Assembly (NCBI GenBank): GCA_009909085.1
Contig: JAAANX010000071.1
Location: 1 to 33,217 of the forward strand
DNA from: Cyanobacteria bacterium GSL.Bin1
Lineage (GTDB): Bacteria > Cyanobacteriota > Cyanobacteriia > Cyanobacteriales > Rubidibacteraceae
Reading direction: 5' to 3'
Length of the DNA: 33,217 bases
Shown here: one piece after another, positions 4,019-16,680 of the stretch
How the letters are laid out: each line of letters starts with the position of its first letter
Position numbering within the stretch: the stretch's first letter is position 1
Program-made: the position numbers and the translations under genes
Notes under the pieces: model-generated
What the model was told of the DNA's origin: nothing
Databases searched by the model: none
The model's input: only the letters and a program-made list of their open reading frames with translations

Positions 4019-4330
4019 ATGAAACAACTACTATCACTATTCGTTCTATCGCTAACATTATTGGTAGCACTTCCAAGCTATAGTCAGACAGTTTGGCGAT
4101 TTGAGTCCTATCAAGAAGGGAACCGTGTCTACTTTAGCACGGCTACTTATGAGCAAGTGGGTGAGGGCGAACAACGACAAACGATTTTAGTCCAACGGGA
4201 AAGCAGTGAACTATTGACGCTTCCAGATGATGTCAGAGAAAGGCAAGAACAATTCTTTGGGGAAAGAGAAGACGTTGTCTTCAGGTTACCTTCTGGATCA
4301 AAAGACAAAATTTTCGTCAGTAATCACTGA
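4019..4330 (+). CDS. Small secreted protein of unknown function
   Basis: I do not recognise this 103-residue protein. Residues 1-22 (MKQLLSLFVLSLTLLVALPSYS) form a typical signal peptide with a likely cleavage after SYS, so the mature part of about 80 residues should be periplasmic or outside the cell. The mature part is polar and charged (Glu, Arg, Gln rich) without cysteines or a lipobox. The start is well supported by the purine-rich ribosome site AAGGGGGTGA 6 nt upstream. It is followed by about 145 bp of non-coding sequence before the archease reading frame. Confidence 0.6.
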   Translation: MKQLLSLFVLSLTLLVALPSYSQTVWRFESYQEGNRVYFSTATYEQVGEGEQRQTILVQRESSELLTLPDDVRERQEQFFGEREDVVFRLPSGSKDKIFVSNH

Positions 4331-4476: not shown

Positions 4477-4905
4477 ATGTCAAGTCGCCACTGCACTCAA
4501 CCACAAAACTTTGAAGAAATTGAACATACTGCTGATTGGGCTTATCGAGTGAGGAGTAAAAATTTAGCAGAATTGTTCGTTGAAGCCGCTTTCGGACTTT
4601 ATTCTCTAGCGGGAATGGAGTTAGCGCCTGAAAATCAAATCACGCGGTCCATTCAACTCCAAGCAATTGACTACGAAAGTTTGTTAGTGGCTTGGTTAAA
4701 TGAATTGCTTTACTACCATGAAAATGAGGGCTTAGGCTTTGAGCAAATCCAAATTGAGCATCTTGATGAAACGAGCTTGCAAGCCTAAATCACCGGCGCA
4801 CCAACTCAACAATGGCTCAAGGAAATAAAAGCAGTGACCTATCACAATTTATCGATCGGTGAAACAGAATGGGGGTGGGAAGTCACCATCGTCCTAGACG
4901 TATAA
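4477..4905 (+). pseudogene. Archease interrupted by an in-frame TAA
   Basis: Archease is the cofactor that helps RtcB RNA ligase become guanylylated and turn over. Residues 8-103 match the family: FEEIEHTADWAYRVRSKNLAELFVEAA and LLVAWLNELLYYHENEGLGF. The frame meets TAA at 4786-4788 after LDETSLQA. It then continues in the same frame for 38 codons, containing IKAVTYHNLSI and GWEVTIVLDV, the canonical archease C-terminus, up to a second TAA at 4903-4905. One base change in a Lys or Gln codon would produce this. The full product would be 142 residues, the normal length. The gene is 59 bp upstream of the rtcB start chosen here and is clearly its operon partner. Without the C-terminal strand the 103-residue product is unlikely to fold normally. 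Confidence 0.85.
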
Positions 4906-4950
4906 AAGAAAAATAGGTGACAACGACGATGCCCCATCCCACTCAAGCAG

Positions 4951-4964: not shown

Positions 4965-6416
4965 ATGATTAGAAAACAAGATTTACATCATCTCAATGAT
5001 TATCTGTGGGAAATCCCTACCTCTTTTAATCCCGAAATGAAGATCCCGGTCTGGATCTTTGCCAACGAGGAATTAATCGAAGATGCCCTCGGAGACTTAT
5101 CCATTACTCAGGCGGTTAATGTTGCTTGTTTGCCAACTTTAGTAGGGCACGTTGCTGTTATGCCGGATGTCCATCAAGGGTACGGTATGCCGATTGGTGG
5201 GGTCATGGTATCGCGCGTACCGTCTGGCATTATTTCACCGGGAGCCGTTGGTTATGATATTAACTGTGGTGTGCGCGTTTTAGCTTCCCAGATTGATTAC
5301 CAAAGTGCTCTCCCCTATTTAGAGGATTTAGCCAGTACGTTATATCGCAACTGTCCGAGTGGGGTTGGTCAAGGGGGGAGTCTCCCTTTAGGGGCTCAAG
5401 AATTCGATCAAGTGTGTCGTCAAGGTTCACGCTGGACGTTAGCACAAGGATATGCCACGCAAGAAGATTTAGAGCGAACCGAAGAATTTGGTTGCTTAGA
5501 AGGGGCTGATCCCGATCAAGCCAGTCAAAGAGCGAAAAAGCGAGGGAAAGGTCAGTTAGGAACCTTAGGTGCAGGCAATCACTTCCTTGAAGTTGATGTA
5601 GTGGAAGAGATTTTTAACCCAGAAGCAGCAGCAGTAATGGGGTTGCAACTCGGATGTCTGGTTGTGCAAATTCACTGTGGGTCTCGGGGGTTTGGCCATC
5701 AAGTTTGTACGGACTATGTGCAAGCCTTTCAGCAGGCAGTCATTGATTATGGCATCAAATTGCCGGATCGAGAATTAGTTTGTGCGCCCTTGAATTCCCC
5801 AGAAGGTCAAGGGTACTTAGCCGCAATGAAAGCTGCTGCCAATTTTGCATTTGCGAACCGTCAAGCGCTGGCTTATCATGCACGGCGTAGTTTTCAATCC
5901 GTATTTGGCTTGCAAGCGGGAGAGTCTCCGCTACGTCAGGTCTATGATATTGCCCATAACATGGCAAAAATTGAAACTCATTTGATTGCAGGAGAACAAT
6001 TAACCGTTTGCGTTCATCGCAAAGGTGCAACGCGAGCGTTTGGTCCGGGATTTGCCGGATTGCCTACTGAATATCGTCCTTTTGGTCAACCCGTATTGGT
6101 TCCCGGTTCAATGGGAACGGAAAGTTGGATTCTTCTGGGAACGGAAGCGAACGAAGCCCTTTCTTTTGGTTCAAGCTGCCACGGTGCGGGACGGGTGATG
6201 AGCCGTCGTCAGGCGAAACGGACGATTCGGGGGGACCGCTTGCGGGAACAACTCAAAAAAGAAGGTGTGAATGTCTGTGCCGGTTCAATGCCAGGACTAG
6301 CCGAAGAAGCGCCACAAGCTTATAAGAATGTGACTCGGGTTGTAGAAACGGTCACTCAAGCGGGGATCGCTCGCAAAGTGGCTCGTTTGCATCCCATCGC
6401 TGTTGTCAAAGGGTAA
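4965..6416 (+). CDS. rtcB: RNA ligase RtcB
   Basis: RtcB joins 2',3'-cyclic phosphate or 3'-phosphate RNA ends to 5'-OH ends using GTP and Mn2+, in tRNA splicing or RNA repair. From the ATG at 4965 the protein has 483 residues, normal for the family. The hallmarks occur in order: [14 protein letters not shown] (66-79), GYDINCGVR with metal ligands Asp98 and Cys101, [55 protein letters not shown], and SSCHGAGR, whose histidine is the guanylylated residue in the family. No key residue is missing. It follows the interrupted archease gene and precedes a phosphoribosyltransferase gene by 12 bp, so the three form one operon. Confidence 0.95.
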
Positions 6417-6428
6417 GGGGATCAGAAG

Positions 6429-7106
6429 ATGAAAACAAAATTTCGCAATCGAACTGAAGCCGGCCAATTATTAGCCAGAAAACTGCAATCAACTTATGCG
6501 AATCGCTCAGATGTGCTCGTACTAGGTTTACCGCGGGGTGGCGTGCCAGTGGCATTTGAAGTCGCTAAGCTACTCAATGCACCTTTAGATATCTGCCTCG
6601 TGCGCAAATTGGGTGTACCAGGACACGAAGAACTAGCAATGGGCGCGATCGCGACCGGAGAAGTCGTTGTCCTGAACCAATCTGTTGTCCACTCGTTAGG
6701 GATTTCTCAGAAAGCGATTGAACAAATGACCGAGCGCGAACGGTTAGAGTTAAACCGACGCGATCGCGCTTACAGAGGGTCTCGTCCGGTTCCTGATTTC
6801 AGTCAGCGCACGATCATTCTCATTGATGACGGGATTGCTACGGGATCAACGCTCCGGGCAGCTTTGTCTACAATTAAGCAGCAGCAACCGGACCGTATCG
6901 TTGTTGCTGTGCCGGTAGCACCACCGAGTGTCTGCAACGAACTGAAAACTGAGGTGGATGAAGTTGTATGTCTTGTCACGCCAGAGGAACTCTATTCGAT
7001 TAGTCTCTGGTACGAAGACTTTGCGCCAACGACCGATGAGGAGGTGCGCCACTTGCTGGCACTGGCGGTTCAGGATGCACCAGCAACGTCAACTCACTCG
7101 AATTAA
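6429..7106 (+). CDS. Phosphoribosyltransferase-fold protein
   Basis: The 225-residue protein is a type I phosphoribosyltransferase-like protein. VLGLPRGGVPVAFEVA (31-46) and the PRPP-binding loop IILIDDGIATGSTLRAA (129-145) are both present, and KLGVPGHEELAMGAI is typical of the group of unassigned PRTases found in cyanobacteria. The substrate is unknown. It starts 12 bp after rtcB, so a nucleotide role linked to RNA repair is possible but unproven. The last 15 residues are low in conservation. The gene is rich in HIP1 sites and looks native. Confidence 0.85.
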   Translation: MKTKFRNRTEAGQLLARKLQSTYANRSDVLVLGLPRGGVPVAFEVAKLLNAPLDICLVRKLGVPGHEELAMGAIATGEVVVLNQSVVHSLGISQKAIEQMTERERLELNRRDRAYRGSRPVPDFSQRTIILIDDGIATGSTLRAALSTIKQQQPDRIVVAVPVAPPSVCNELKTEVDEVVCLVTPEELYSISLWYEDFAPTTDEEVRHLLALAVQDAPATSTHSN

Positions 7107-11529: not shown

Positions 11530-14500
11530 CTATCTAGCCCGAGTCGGATCGAAGATAAAGTAGTGCCCTTTTCCTTGAGATTTGGCTTGATACATTGCTG
11601 TATCTGCATCTCGCAGTATCTCTTCTGGTTGTTGATAATTGAAAGTACTAAAAGTAATCCCAATGCTAGTACTAACATACATTTCTTGGTTATTTAAAGA
11701 AAAAGGTCGAGAAAACTGTTCTTGGATTCGTTGAGCAATAACAGTGGCTTCTTCTTTATCTTCAATCTTTTCTAGCAAAATGGCAAACTCATCTCCACTG
11801 AAACGTGAAACTGTATCACTTTTACGCACGCAAGTTATTAGTCTTTGAGCAACCTCTTTTAGCAATTCATCCCCAACTAAATGTCCCAAACTATCATTAA
11901 TTATTTTGAAACGATCTAGATCGAGAAACAAAAAAGCATACAGGTATTGAGGATATTGTGCTGCTAGAAAAATCGATTTTTCTAGTAATTTTATCAGCAA
12001 AGCCCGATTGGGTAAACCCGTTAGTAAGTCATGAAAAGCATCGTGTTCTAATTTTTGCTGCATCTCCAGCAGTTTTTGTTGATTTTTTTTGAGTTGTGAT
12101 AAAGATTTTTCTAATCGCTCGGCTTTTTGTTTTTCTCTCAGTTCTGAATGCTGTAAATCTAAATATAGATTGGCATTTTTTAAGGAAATAGCAGCTTGAT
12201 CGCAAAGGATATTTAGCATTCCTAAGCACTCGCTAGTAAAAATATTTTTGGTTAAATTATTTTCTAGATAAAGAATACCAATTAATGTTTGTTGATGGGA
12301 AATGGGGAAGCATAAAATTGATTGGGGTTGATATTTAATTAAATAAGGATCGGCAATAAAAATGGTATTTTCTAGGTGCTCATCTAATATTATGGGTTGA
12401 GAAGTAAACTTAACATAGTTAATGATACTGGTGGGTAAATTTTGCTTTAAAGCTTCTAATTCGTAGCGATCAAACTCAATTTTTGGAAAATTATTGACGA
12501 TACTGATTGCTGCCAAAAAGTTTTTTGATTCTTGGTCTAAGACAATTAAAGAACCTGTTTGAGCGCCAGAATTTTTGAGAATTGAATCCATCAAAATGGC
12601 TAACAATCTATCTAATTTAATTTCTTTAGAAATCGCTTGAAAAGTTTTAATAATTGTGCTTAAATCCAGGTGGTCGCTCTTGATTTTTAAAGTAGAGATA
12701 TCAGTGGGATTGGGTTTCTCAACTAGGGTTAATTTTGGGTTGAGAATCGGTGCAAGTAATTGAGCGTAGTTTTGAGCTAAATCTTTTACTTTGGTTGTTG
12801 CCCCCCAACGGACATAACTATAGTAAGCATTAGTTAAATATAATCGAGCAATATCTTTTTTGCCCCAGTTCAAATAAAATTTAGCAGTTAATTCTTGAGC
12901 TAAAGCTAGATCATTGGGGTATTGATTGACTTTTGCTAATTTAATAGCTTGTTCGTAATTATCAATTGCCTGAAGATATTGCCCAAGAACTCGCTGTTTT
13001 TCTGCTTCTACTAAATAATATTTATGCAGATAATTCATCGGAGCGGATTTAGCCCAGGTTTTAATTTTTTTTTGATTGGCTTTGACTTTTCTCATCAAAA
13101 ATTTTTGCTCGAAAAAAGAGGCGCAATCATAGACAGCTAATCTAGTCAGGGAATCATAAAAATGAAATAAGGGAATAATTAAAGTTGCTTTAACTCCATC
13201 TAGATACAGTTCAGTATTGTTGGCATTAGTTAAAGCTTCGGTATACTTTTCAAACAGATAGCATAAGATTAATTTATGACAATATAAATGGCAAATCGCT
13301 GAAAGATGATTAGCTTCTAAAAGTAAAGGCAAAGTGGTTTCTTCGTTATAACTTTCTCCTTTTAGATAGGTCGGATTGTCTTCTCTTATTATTAAATTAA
13401 GAACGACCTGATGATATAATTTAACTAAATTAAGAGCTGTTTCTTGTTTAAATTGACTAATATAATCTAGATATTGAAAGATTTCTCCTTCGAGTTTTGT
13501 TAATTGTTTACCAATCAGATAAGAATGGTAACTGTAGACAAAAGCAGAATAGGAAGCAAATTCTAAATCTCCTGTTTCTAATCCGCTACAGTAAGCATCT
13601 TTAAGAGATTCTAATCCTGGTTGGGGATGTTCTTTCCAATGTCGAATAAAATTATTAAAAACCATTAATGTCTTGGCTTTTAATTCTTCAGCTTGGAACT
13701 TCTCTAATAAATTTAAGGCTAATTTACCAAATTGATAACCCGCATCGACTTGTCCTAACGAGCCACACAACGCTACTCCATAACTGGCGTATCCATAAAT
13801 AGATATCGCAGTATTACCATGTTGAATCGATAAATTAACTGCCTTTAAAGCTAGTAAAGGGACAAGATTGGGAGTAGCATTATAAGCAGGAGAACCCACA
13901 ATACTCATAATTTTTGCCACTGCTAATAGCTGGGGATCGGACATTCTGGGCAAATCGACTAAATTAGCAATTTCTTTTCCCGCTAAAATCAATTTTGTCT
14001 GAATTAACGCCCATAACAGTTGTATTTTATGGGGTTTGAGGGGAAAACGAACTCCCAAAAGCTCTAAAACTTGTAAGGCAATTTTTACCGCTTGCAGTGG
14101 TTCTCCTTGGGCGATGTAGGCATAGATTTTAACTTCATAGGCTTTAATCCGATCGAAGAGAGAGCGCCCATGCTGTAGGATAGTGACAACTAACTCTTCC
14201 ATTCGCTCTAAATAGCCACAGAGATAAGCGGCTTCGGCTGCTGCGACAGATAAAGCAAGAGTCAGTTCGTATTGAGTTTGCCAGCCATCTGTCGCTAGTA
14301 ATTCCAATCCCGTTGAGAAGTATTCCCAGGCATTATGATATGCATTGGCAGTTTTGGCTTTGTCACCAGCCGTCAGATTTAACTGGGCTAAACGATTTCT
14401 TTCGGATGGTGTGGAAATTAACTCAATAGCTAGATTTAAATGGTTGACAATGGCAAAAATTTTCTCTTCTCTGTCATTAGCTGAGGTTTGATTTAATAAT

Positions 14501-16680
14501 AATTGTCCGATTTGAAAATGAGTGGTTGCCTTTTCTGATTCGGGAATTAGCCGATAGGCTGCTTGCTGAACTCGATCATGTAAAAATTGATAGGAAACAC
14601 CAGGAGAAAAATCCTTTCTAACTGTAGCTTGCTGATTAAGGGTAAACTGATAAATTTCGCTAATTGGTAAAATTAAGCCTTCTTGTAAAGCTTGGCGCAA
14701 CTCGATTATCGTATCTAGTTCTGATTGACCATTAGCAATTGCTAGGGTGTCTAAAGCGAATTCATTGCCGATACAAGCAGCTATTTTTAATAAATTTTGG
14801 CTGTTTGTCGAGAGCTGTTGCAATCGTTGAGCCATAAACTCGACGACATCATCACTAACCGCTAAAACTTTTACTTTGGCAATGTCGCACTGCCAACAAC
14901 CCCGAGCGCGATTGAAAGTAATTAATCCGGCTTGGTGTAAAAAGTGCAGGAGTTCGATGGTAAAAAAAGGATTGCCTTGAGTTTTCTGCCAAATTAACTC
15001 GCTTAAGGGAAAGGCTAAAGCTTCCGAACAAGAAAGAGTATCGGCAATCATGCTGTTCAGAGTCAGACAATTGAGTGGAGATAAACCGATATAATTTACT
15101 GCCACCGCTGTATCCTCAAACTCGCAAATATTTTGCTCGAGCTCCTCTAAATTTAAAATTAGGGGATGGACTGGGCTAACTTCGTTATCTCGATAAGCAC
15201 CAATAAGTAACAAATAGCCAATATCTGAATCGCTCATTAGAAGCTGGATAAATTTGAGCGAAGCTAAATCTGCCCACTGTAAATCATCAAGAAAAATAAC
15301 TAAAGGACGCTCTTTAGTAGCAAAAACGCGAATAAATTGCCTAAAAACTAGCTGAAATCGATTTTGAGCTGCATTAGGCTCTAATTCGACAACAGGAGGC
15401 TGTTTACCGATAATTGTTTCTAATTCGGGAATTACATCAATAATGAGCTGTCCATTATCTCCTAGAGCTTGTAGCAACTGATGTCGCCAATGCTCAAGAT
15501 TTTCAGGACTTTCAGTTTGCAGTTGAAAAATTAGACCTTGAAACGCAGATAGAATCGCTGCTAAAGGCTGATTACATAGAAACTGCTCGAATTTTCCCTT
15601 CAGAACATAACCTCGTTCTCGTAGAATTGAGCGACTGGCTCGCTTGATTAAGGCGGTCTTACCTACACCAGAAGAGCCAGACACTACCAGTAACTCTTTA
15701 TTGCCTTGACAGACTCGATTGTAAGCACCTAGTAATGTTTCTACTTCCTGTTCTCTGCCATAGAGTTGATGGGGAATCATTAAGCGAGCGCAAATATCTC
15801 GCCATCCCAAGCTAAAGCTAGTAATTTCCTTCTGATTTTGCCATTGTTGCCGACATTCTTCTAGATCGTACTTTAGTCCCCAAGCAGTCTGATATCGTTC
15901 TTCAGGATTTTTAGCCATCAATTTAAGAACGATCTGACTTAACATTTCTGGAATACTGGGATTGATTTGTCTGGGAGGAATCGGCTCGAGTGCTATATGA
16001 GAGTAAACTAATTCAAGGGGATTACTCTGAGAAAACGGCAGTTGTCCCGTCAGCAGTTGGTAAAAAGTTACTCCTAAAGCATAAAAATCAGTACGATGAT
16101 CGACACCCCGATTAATTCTTCCCGTTTGTTCTGGAGAAGTATAGGGCAAAATATCATCTAGACAACTAGGATTTTGCTCCAGTTGCCTATTTTTCGGCAA
16201 GAGGGAAGCTAGACTAAAATCCCTCAACTTAACTTGTTTCGTGTCAGGAGCGATTAAAATATTTTGTGGCTGGATTTTTTGATGGATAATCTGGTTTTGC
16301 TGGAGTTTTTCCAGAATGGCTCCCACTTGAATGGCAATGTGCCAAAAATCTGATAATTGCTGCCTTGATAAATTTTGATTCTCTCTAACGGCAAAGTATT
16401 CTAGCCAAGAAATCCCCCTAAAATCCTCCATAATTAGAGCCCACCCATTGCCGAAGCTCTCCAAGGCATAAGTCTTGACTACCCCATCTAAATTGAGGTT
16501 GTGGGTAATAATATATTGATTGCGAAATTTTGTGAGTTCGGTAAAACTTGGATGTTGATTGGTTAAACATGCAATCGCAACTTTTTGGCGATCTCGGATA
16601 CGCTCTCCTCGATAAAGAGCAGTCTGAATTCCTTCAGAGATTTTCTCTAAATTTTTATACCCTTTTAGTGATACCAACAT
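11530..16680 (-). CDS. Giant signalling protein: pseudokinase - AAA ATPase - helical repeats - GAF - GGDEF
   Basis: The 1716 residues begin with a Ser/Thr-kinase-like domain (about 1-275). An AAA/STAND-type ATPase follows, with Walker A GSSGVGKT at 335-342 and Walker B LVIFLDDLQWAD at 460-471. A long helical, TPR-like region comes next, then a GAF domain (about 1340-1503), a coiled coil (1509-1548) and a C-terminal GGDEF domain. Family members usually end in a histidine kinase; this one ends in a diguanylate cyclase. The kinase domain has lost key residues: the VAIK lysine is Ala37, the HRD aspartate is Lys135 (IIHQKIQPQN), and DFG is DFS (154-156). The GGDEF signature is SGDEF (1628-1632), with an RKSD inhibitory site five residues before it, so cyclic-di-GMP synthesis is plausible. 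The gene is AT-rich with no HIP1 site, unlike its neighbours. Confidence 0.88.
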   Translation of the reverse strand: MLVSLKGYKNLEKISEGIQTALYRGERIRDRQKVAIACLTNQHPSFTELTKFRNQYIITHNLNLDGVVKTYALESFGNGWALIMEDFRGISWLEYFAVRENQNLSRQQLSDFWHIAIQVGAILEKLQQNQIIHQKIQPQNILIAPDTKQVKLRDFSLASLLPKNRQLEQNPSCLDDILPYTSPEQTGRINRGVDHRTDFYALGVTFYQLLTGQLPFSQSNPLELVYSHIALEPIPPRQINPSIPEMLSQIVLKLMAKNPEERYQTAWGLKYDLEECRQQWQNQKEITSFSLGWRDICARLMIPHQLYGREQEVETLLGAYNRVCQGNKELLVVSGSSGVGKTALIKRASRSILRERGYVLKGKFEQFLCNQPLAAILSAFQGLIFQLQTESPENLEHWRHQLLQALGDNGQLIIDVIPELETIIGKQPPVVELEPNAAQNRFQLVFRQFIRVFATKERPLVIFLDDLQWADLASLKFIQLLMSDSDIGYLLLIGAYRDNEVSPVHPLILNLEELEQNICEFEDTAVAVNYIGLSPLNCLTLNSMIADTLSCSEALAFPLSELIWQKTQGNPFFTIELLHFLHQAGLITFNRARGCWQCDIAKVKVLAVSDDVVEFMAQRLQQLSTNSQNLLKIAACIGNEFALDTLAIANGQSELDTIIELRQALQEGLILPISEIYQFTLNQQATVRKDFSPGVSYQFLHDRVQQAAYRLIPESEKATTHFQIGQLLLNQTSANDREEKIFAIVNHLNLAIELISTPSERNRLAQLNLTAGDKAKTANAYHNAWEYFSTGLELLATDGWQTQYELTLALSVAAAEAAYLCGYLERMEELVVTILQHGRSLFDRIKAYEVKIYAYIAQGEPLQAVKIALQVLELLGVRFPLKPHKIQLLWALIQTKLILAGKEIANLVDLPRMSDPQLLAVAKIMSIVGSPAYNATPNLVPLLALKAVNLSIQHGNTAISIYGYASYGVALCGSLGQVDAGYQFGKLALNLLEKFQAEELKAKTLMVFNNFIRHWKEHPQPGLESLKDAYCSGLETGDLEFASYSAFVYSYHSYLIGKQLTKLEGEIFQYLDYISQFKQETALNLVKLYHQVVLNLIIREDNPTYLKGESYNEETTLPLLLEANHLSAICHLYCHKLILCYLFEKYTEALTNANNTELYLDGVKATLIIPLFHFYDSLTRLAVYDCASFFEQKFLMRKVKANQKKIKTWAKSAPMNYLHKYYLVEAEKQRVLGQYLQAIDNYEQAIKLAKVNQYPNDLALAQELTAKFYLNWGKKDIARLYLTNAYYSYVRWGATTKVKDLAQNYAQLLAPILNPKLTLVEKPNPTDISTLKIKSDHLDLSTIIKTFQAISKEIKLDRLLAILMDSILKNSGAQTGSLIVLDQESKNFLAAISIVNNFPKIEFDRYELEALKQNLPTSIINYVKFTSQPIILDEHLENTIFIADPYLIKYQPQSILCFPISHQQTLIGILYLENNLTKNIFTSECLGMLNILCDQAAISLKNANLYLDLQHSELREKQKAERLEKSLSQLKKNQQKLLEMQQKLEHDAFHDLLTGLPNRALLIKLLEKSIFLAAQYPQYLYAFLFLDLDRFKIINDSLGHLVGDELLKEVAQRLITCVRKSDTVSRFSGDEFAILLEKIEDKEEATVIAQRIQEQFSRPFSLNNQEMYVSTSIGITFSTFNYQQPEEILRDADTAMYQAKSQGKGHYFIFDPTRAR

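Follow-up and report, generated by a model that had tools for sequence, protein, structure and literature searches.

An archease reading frame interrupted by a single in-frame stop codon beside an intact rtcB in a cyanobacterial draft genome

The archease-RtcB pair has been dissected at residue level in archaeal and human proteins. The metal site of P. horikoshii archease consists of two conserved Asp residues and the C-terminal carboxylate, and activation of RtcB is strongly reduced by D12A, D141A, deletion of Ile142, or substitution of His9 or Lys117 (PMC3973293). Comparable contacts are reported for the human complex, where Asp51, Asp178, the Ile179 carboxylate, and Lys156 touch metal or phosphate at the RtcB active site (PMC10944509). 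The active-site residues named for RtcB are Asp95, Cys98, His203, His234, and His329, and the RtcB of E. coli is described as needing no archease (PMC10630183).

We analyzed a single stretch of DNA of 33,217 nucleotides from Cyanobacteria bacterium GSL.Bin1 (here, the window), in which an archease gene lies directly upstream of rtcB, an adjacency that is common but not universal. The first-pass annotation had claimed that the archease frame is broken by an in-frame TAA ahead of an intact rtcB, and that it carries 38 open codons after this one nonsense codon, with no frameshift. Both claims agree with our translation of the frame and with the profile matches to PF01951 and PF01139. The translated frame runs through DETSLQA to the TAA, its sole in-frame stop, continues as ITGAPTQQWLKEIKAVTYHNLSIGETEWGWEVTIVLDV, and ends at the stop codon at 4903 to 4905. 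When each side was compared with PF01951 separately, the 103-residue piece before the stop gave an E value of 9.8e-21 (positions 1 to 93 of 136) and the 38-residue piece after it, alone, 7.1e-9 (positions 106 to 136). Reading through the stop with an X restores a match over the full profile (1 to 136 of 136; E 5.1e-35). Chance does not account for archease profile matches on both sides of the stop. The features of the locus are collected in Table 1, in which G001 denotes a genome of the same genus.

Table 1. Features of the archease-rtcB locus in the window
Feature	Coordinates	Strand	Supporting evidence
Archease gene (PF01951) interrupted by one nonsense codon	4477..4905	+	Profile match; G001 homologue
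Truncated open frame, 103 aa, the predicted product, with His17 and Asp20	4477..4788	+	Pfam positions 1-93 of 136
In-frame TAA, codon 104	4786..4788	+	Sense codons (Gln, Arg, Lys, Thr, Glu) in 10/10 others of the same archease type
C-terminal part cut off by the TAA, 38 codons plus stop, with Lys118, Asp141, and terminal Val142	4789..4905	+	Pfam positions 106-136
rtcB, 483 aa, P. horikoshii-like class, with Asp98, Cys101, His206, His237, His331, and His406	4965..6416	+	
Phosphoribosyltransferase-domain gene after rtcB, here and in G001	6429..7106	+	PF00156; G001 homologue with 68% identity

Read through, the window frame shares with the archeases of P. horikoshii and human the full profile, the conserved His, the two Asp residues, the Lys, and the C-terminus; its best solved relative by sequence is 4n2p (E 6.5e-12). 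The predicted product differs, as the stop at codon 104 takes off the Lys, the second Asp, and the C-terminus. In window numbering, Lys118, Asp141, and Val142 all fall downstream of the stop, while His17 and Asp20 fall upstream, and these five columns are invariant in all 11 archease sequences aligned. The lost residues match Asp141, Ile142, and Lys117 of P. horikoshii archease and D178, the I179 carboxylate, and K156 of the human protein (PMC3973293 and PMC10944509). The 103-residue product would thus fall short of the combination of both metal-binding Asp residues, the conserved Lys, and the C-terminal carboxylate. Since the lost Lys, last Asp, and C-terminal carboxylate are needed for RtcB activation, the truncated archease should be inactive, judging from its sequence.

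The downstream rtcB shows no such damage. It matches PF01139 with an E value of 5.7e-167, has no internal stop, and matches the RtcB of P. horikoshii (1uc2; E 6.9e-160), retaining every active-site residue compared. The sixth of these is His404 in P. horikoshii numbering. Alignment with relatives places the rtcB start at the ATG at 4965 rather than at the upstream GTG at 4917, so that 59 bases separate the end of the archease frame (4905) from the rtcB start; the gene order is the same in G001. What sets the window apart from other P. horikoshii-like RtcB loci is that the presumed activator gene is broken. Elsewhere in the window, a 103-residue open frame without a Pfam match lies just upstream of archease (4019 to 4330), and a 1,716-residue protein with kinase, AAA, GAF, and diguanylate cyclase domains is encoded at 11530 to 16680.

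To place the stop among related sequences, we compared the locus with other genomes of the order. G001 has the closest intact archease that turned up in this comparison (74% identity across 136 residues), with rtcB and the phosphoribosyltransferase homologue after it. A check of the codon at 4786 in relatives, proposed along with the first-pass annotation, was run and returned a sense codon in each of the 10 sequences of this archease type that were aligned; the encoded residue is Gln, Arg, Lys, Thr, or Glu, indicating that the position itself is variable. Of the 291 genomes surveyed in the order, 57 have an archease match; this spans the whole profile in 53, and a stop interrupts such a full-length match in the window's genome only. 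In a search for another copy of the same species, a scan of contigs, from which very near records may have been left out, yielded eight archease loci at 60 to 78% identity in seven other MAGs, with no stops, and viral contigs gave no match to an exact pattern that allowed any codon at the stop. Short extra archease pieces with stops lie beside full-length genes in G019 and G046, and G006 has a remnant with a stop. Counting all the short extra archease-like pieces (G019:C12:69287-69532, G046:C4:87326-87484, G068:C27:54578-54664, and G095:C83:28910-29008, in genome coordinates), stops are found in two of the four, and each piece lies about 2.3 kb or less from a full-length archease.

The dependence of RtcB on archease was examined through co-occurrence alone. 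With the P. horikoshii-like class defined as matches with E up to 1e-140, a cutoff of our choosing, 51 of the 291 genomes carry such an RtcB, and all 51 also have an archease match. Six archease-bearing genomes have no RtcB of this class, namely, G003, G006, G200, and G252, in which archease is partial, and two incomplete genomes, G150 (66%) and G279 (81%). An RtcB match of some kind (E up to 0.001) was found in 29 of the 40 nearest relatives, and the eight that reach the P. horikoshii-like class are the same eight matched by the window archease. Of the 21 other RtcB-bearing relatives, G006 has an archease remnant, and the archease protein search gave no match in the remainder. Two further loci stood out in this survey. 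G266, a 67%-complete draft with a stop-free archease match, has an archease-linked-class RtcB with one in-frame TGA (L135:399-1856) and is a possible converse case, and a Xenococcaceae MAG has an intact archease (L011:1462-1887) with no rtcB match in its 5,887-base locus.

We evaluated the age of the stop by asking how far the sequence on either side has decayed. In an in-house codon test on a small alignment, with convergence unchecked and nearly saturated synonymous sites (no pairwise dS could be obtained for the tail), dN/dS on the window branch was 0.07 for the 38-codon tail against a background of 0.11, and neutrality was weakly rejected (2dlnL 4.31). The same test gave 0.24 versus 0.13 before the stop, where neither equality (2dlnL 0.65) nor neutrality (2dlnL 1.67) was rejected, and 0.056 versus 0.064 for rtcB, where neutrality was strongly rejected (2dlnL 51.6). 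Window-specific changes at conserved columns number 0 at 29 in the tail and 2 at 49 before the stop; for comparison, G001-specific changes number 3 at 31 and 1 at 48, respectively. Three radical changes in the tail (Gly128, Trp132, and Trp134) lie outside the columns counted as conserved and could be read as early decay. With no clear decay in the tail and neutrality weakly rejected, the stop looks recent: it is either recent relative to the divergence from G001 or not real.

These observations are probably best explained by a very recent inactivation of archease through a single nonsense mutation, with rtcB not yet decayed. The mutation would leave an archease fragment of 103 residues that keeps the first metal ligand, Asp20, without Lys118, the second metal ligand Asp141, or the C-terminal carboxylate, and such a fragment would not help load GMP onto RtcB. 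For RtcB itself, which is intact and still under constraint, the prediction is weak activation, or no more than slow single turnover, and rtcB would be expected to decay next. The reality of the mutation and its fixation in the strain, the inactivity of the fragment, and the effect on RtcB are inferences from the sequence.

Alternatively, the TAA may be an error of sequencing or assembly, or a polymorphic variant that entered the consensus, in which case the archease of the organism is intact. The assembly is a draft of 210 contigs, and a tail without clear decay beside an intact rtcB is what would be expected of an archease that still works. The same reading fits the pairing of this RtcB class with archease in every genome that has it, among which a broken archease with an intact rtcB is otherwise unseen. 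Contig C82 of the same assembly, moreover, has two adjacent ABC-domain pieces in different frames, which may be a frameshift. However, the 74 ABC-domain matches of the genome are all free of stops (150 of 171 candidates scored), and a false-stop-rich assembly is not supported. A coding-potential scan of 433 kb (the window and 20 stretches) covered 357 in-frame stops, of which 16 were kept because the sequence looked coding on either side. As 13 of the 15 other stops kept have an in-frame start within 8 codons downstream, most look like ordinary gene boundaries, which also speaks against widespread error. The exceptions are L121:17827, with the first in-frame start 16 codons on, and L117:15311, with the first 51 codons on; L117:14190, with a start 8 codons on, looks by eye like a broken transposase. 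Isolated substitution errors are uncommon in consensus sequences of this type, and we consider an error or polymorphism unlikely.

A different possibility accepts the loss of archease and holds that an RtcB of the archease-linked class still functions in this lineage in its absence, either because independence has been gained or because another factor does the activating. We regard this as distinctly improbable.

Full-length archease could also still be made if enough ribosomes read through or bypass the stop. A frame that stays open and constrained past the stop, next to a conserved rtcB, would be compatible with this. Nevertheless, the site is variable, none of the 10 other sequences of this archease type has a stop there, and three features that might promote readthrough were looked for and not found. 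No ochre suppressor (TTA anticodon) was detected among 42 tRNAs found in the draft, with 150 of 266 first-look candidates scored and the caveat that a divergent or unassembled tRNA could be missed. The 81 bases covering the stop and the sequence beyond fold no better than shuffled versions (z 1.25), and no slippery run was seen at the stop by eye. Readthrough was rejected on these grounds as very improbable, which bears out the earlier preference for a recent loss or an error over programmed readthrough, as does the constraint on the tail. A second archease was not found either, the 4.82-Mb genome having one archease match and one rtcB match. Least credible is a two-piece archease whose separately translated tail joins the N-terminal fragment: the tail alone does match Pfam and has Lys118, Asp141, and the C-terminus, but it has no ATG, its sole in-frame start is a GTG 15 codons past the stop that would leave out the essential Lys118, and no stop lies within the full-length archease match of any of the 52 other genomes that have one.

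We also found archease remnants in two members of the same family. In G003, the archease remnant is spread over two frames (L098:2868-3226) and there is no RtcB match; G006 has remnants of both genes, archease at L099:4391-4519 and a G005-type RtcB in broken pieces at L134:1430-2375. Both archease remnants belong to another archease type, nearer that of G005, which rules them out as the same gene as the window archease and points to independent loss of a related pair rather than of the window locus. By sequence comparison, G003 and G006 appear to represent later stages in the loss of such a pair. G002, G004, and G008 have neither gene, and G007 has a weaker-scoring RtcB only, with no archease.

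As an event, the window archease is an ordinary nonsense pseudogene. It resembles single-nonsense bacterial pseudogenes in general in having a frame that is open but for one stop and not clearly decayed, and it differs from them only in the identity of the gene. Among the matches listed in searches on archease with RtcB, cyanobacteria, bacterial pseudogenes, and co-evolution or turnover, no title or abstract opening described an archease disrupted next to an intact rtcB. If the stop is real, the strain is a natural archease knockout beside an intact rtcB of a class never found without archease in the 291 genomes, and it offers a test of whether the P. horikoshii-like RtcB class needs archease in a living bacterium. 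In that case, the locus may also have caught the loss of an archease-RtcB module at its first step. Should its RtcB work without archease, the strain would be a natural test of whether archease dependence can be lost.
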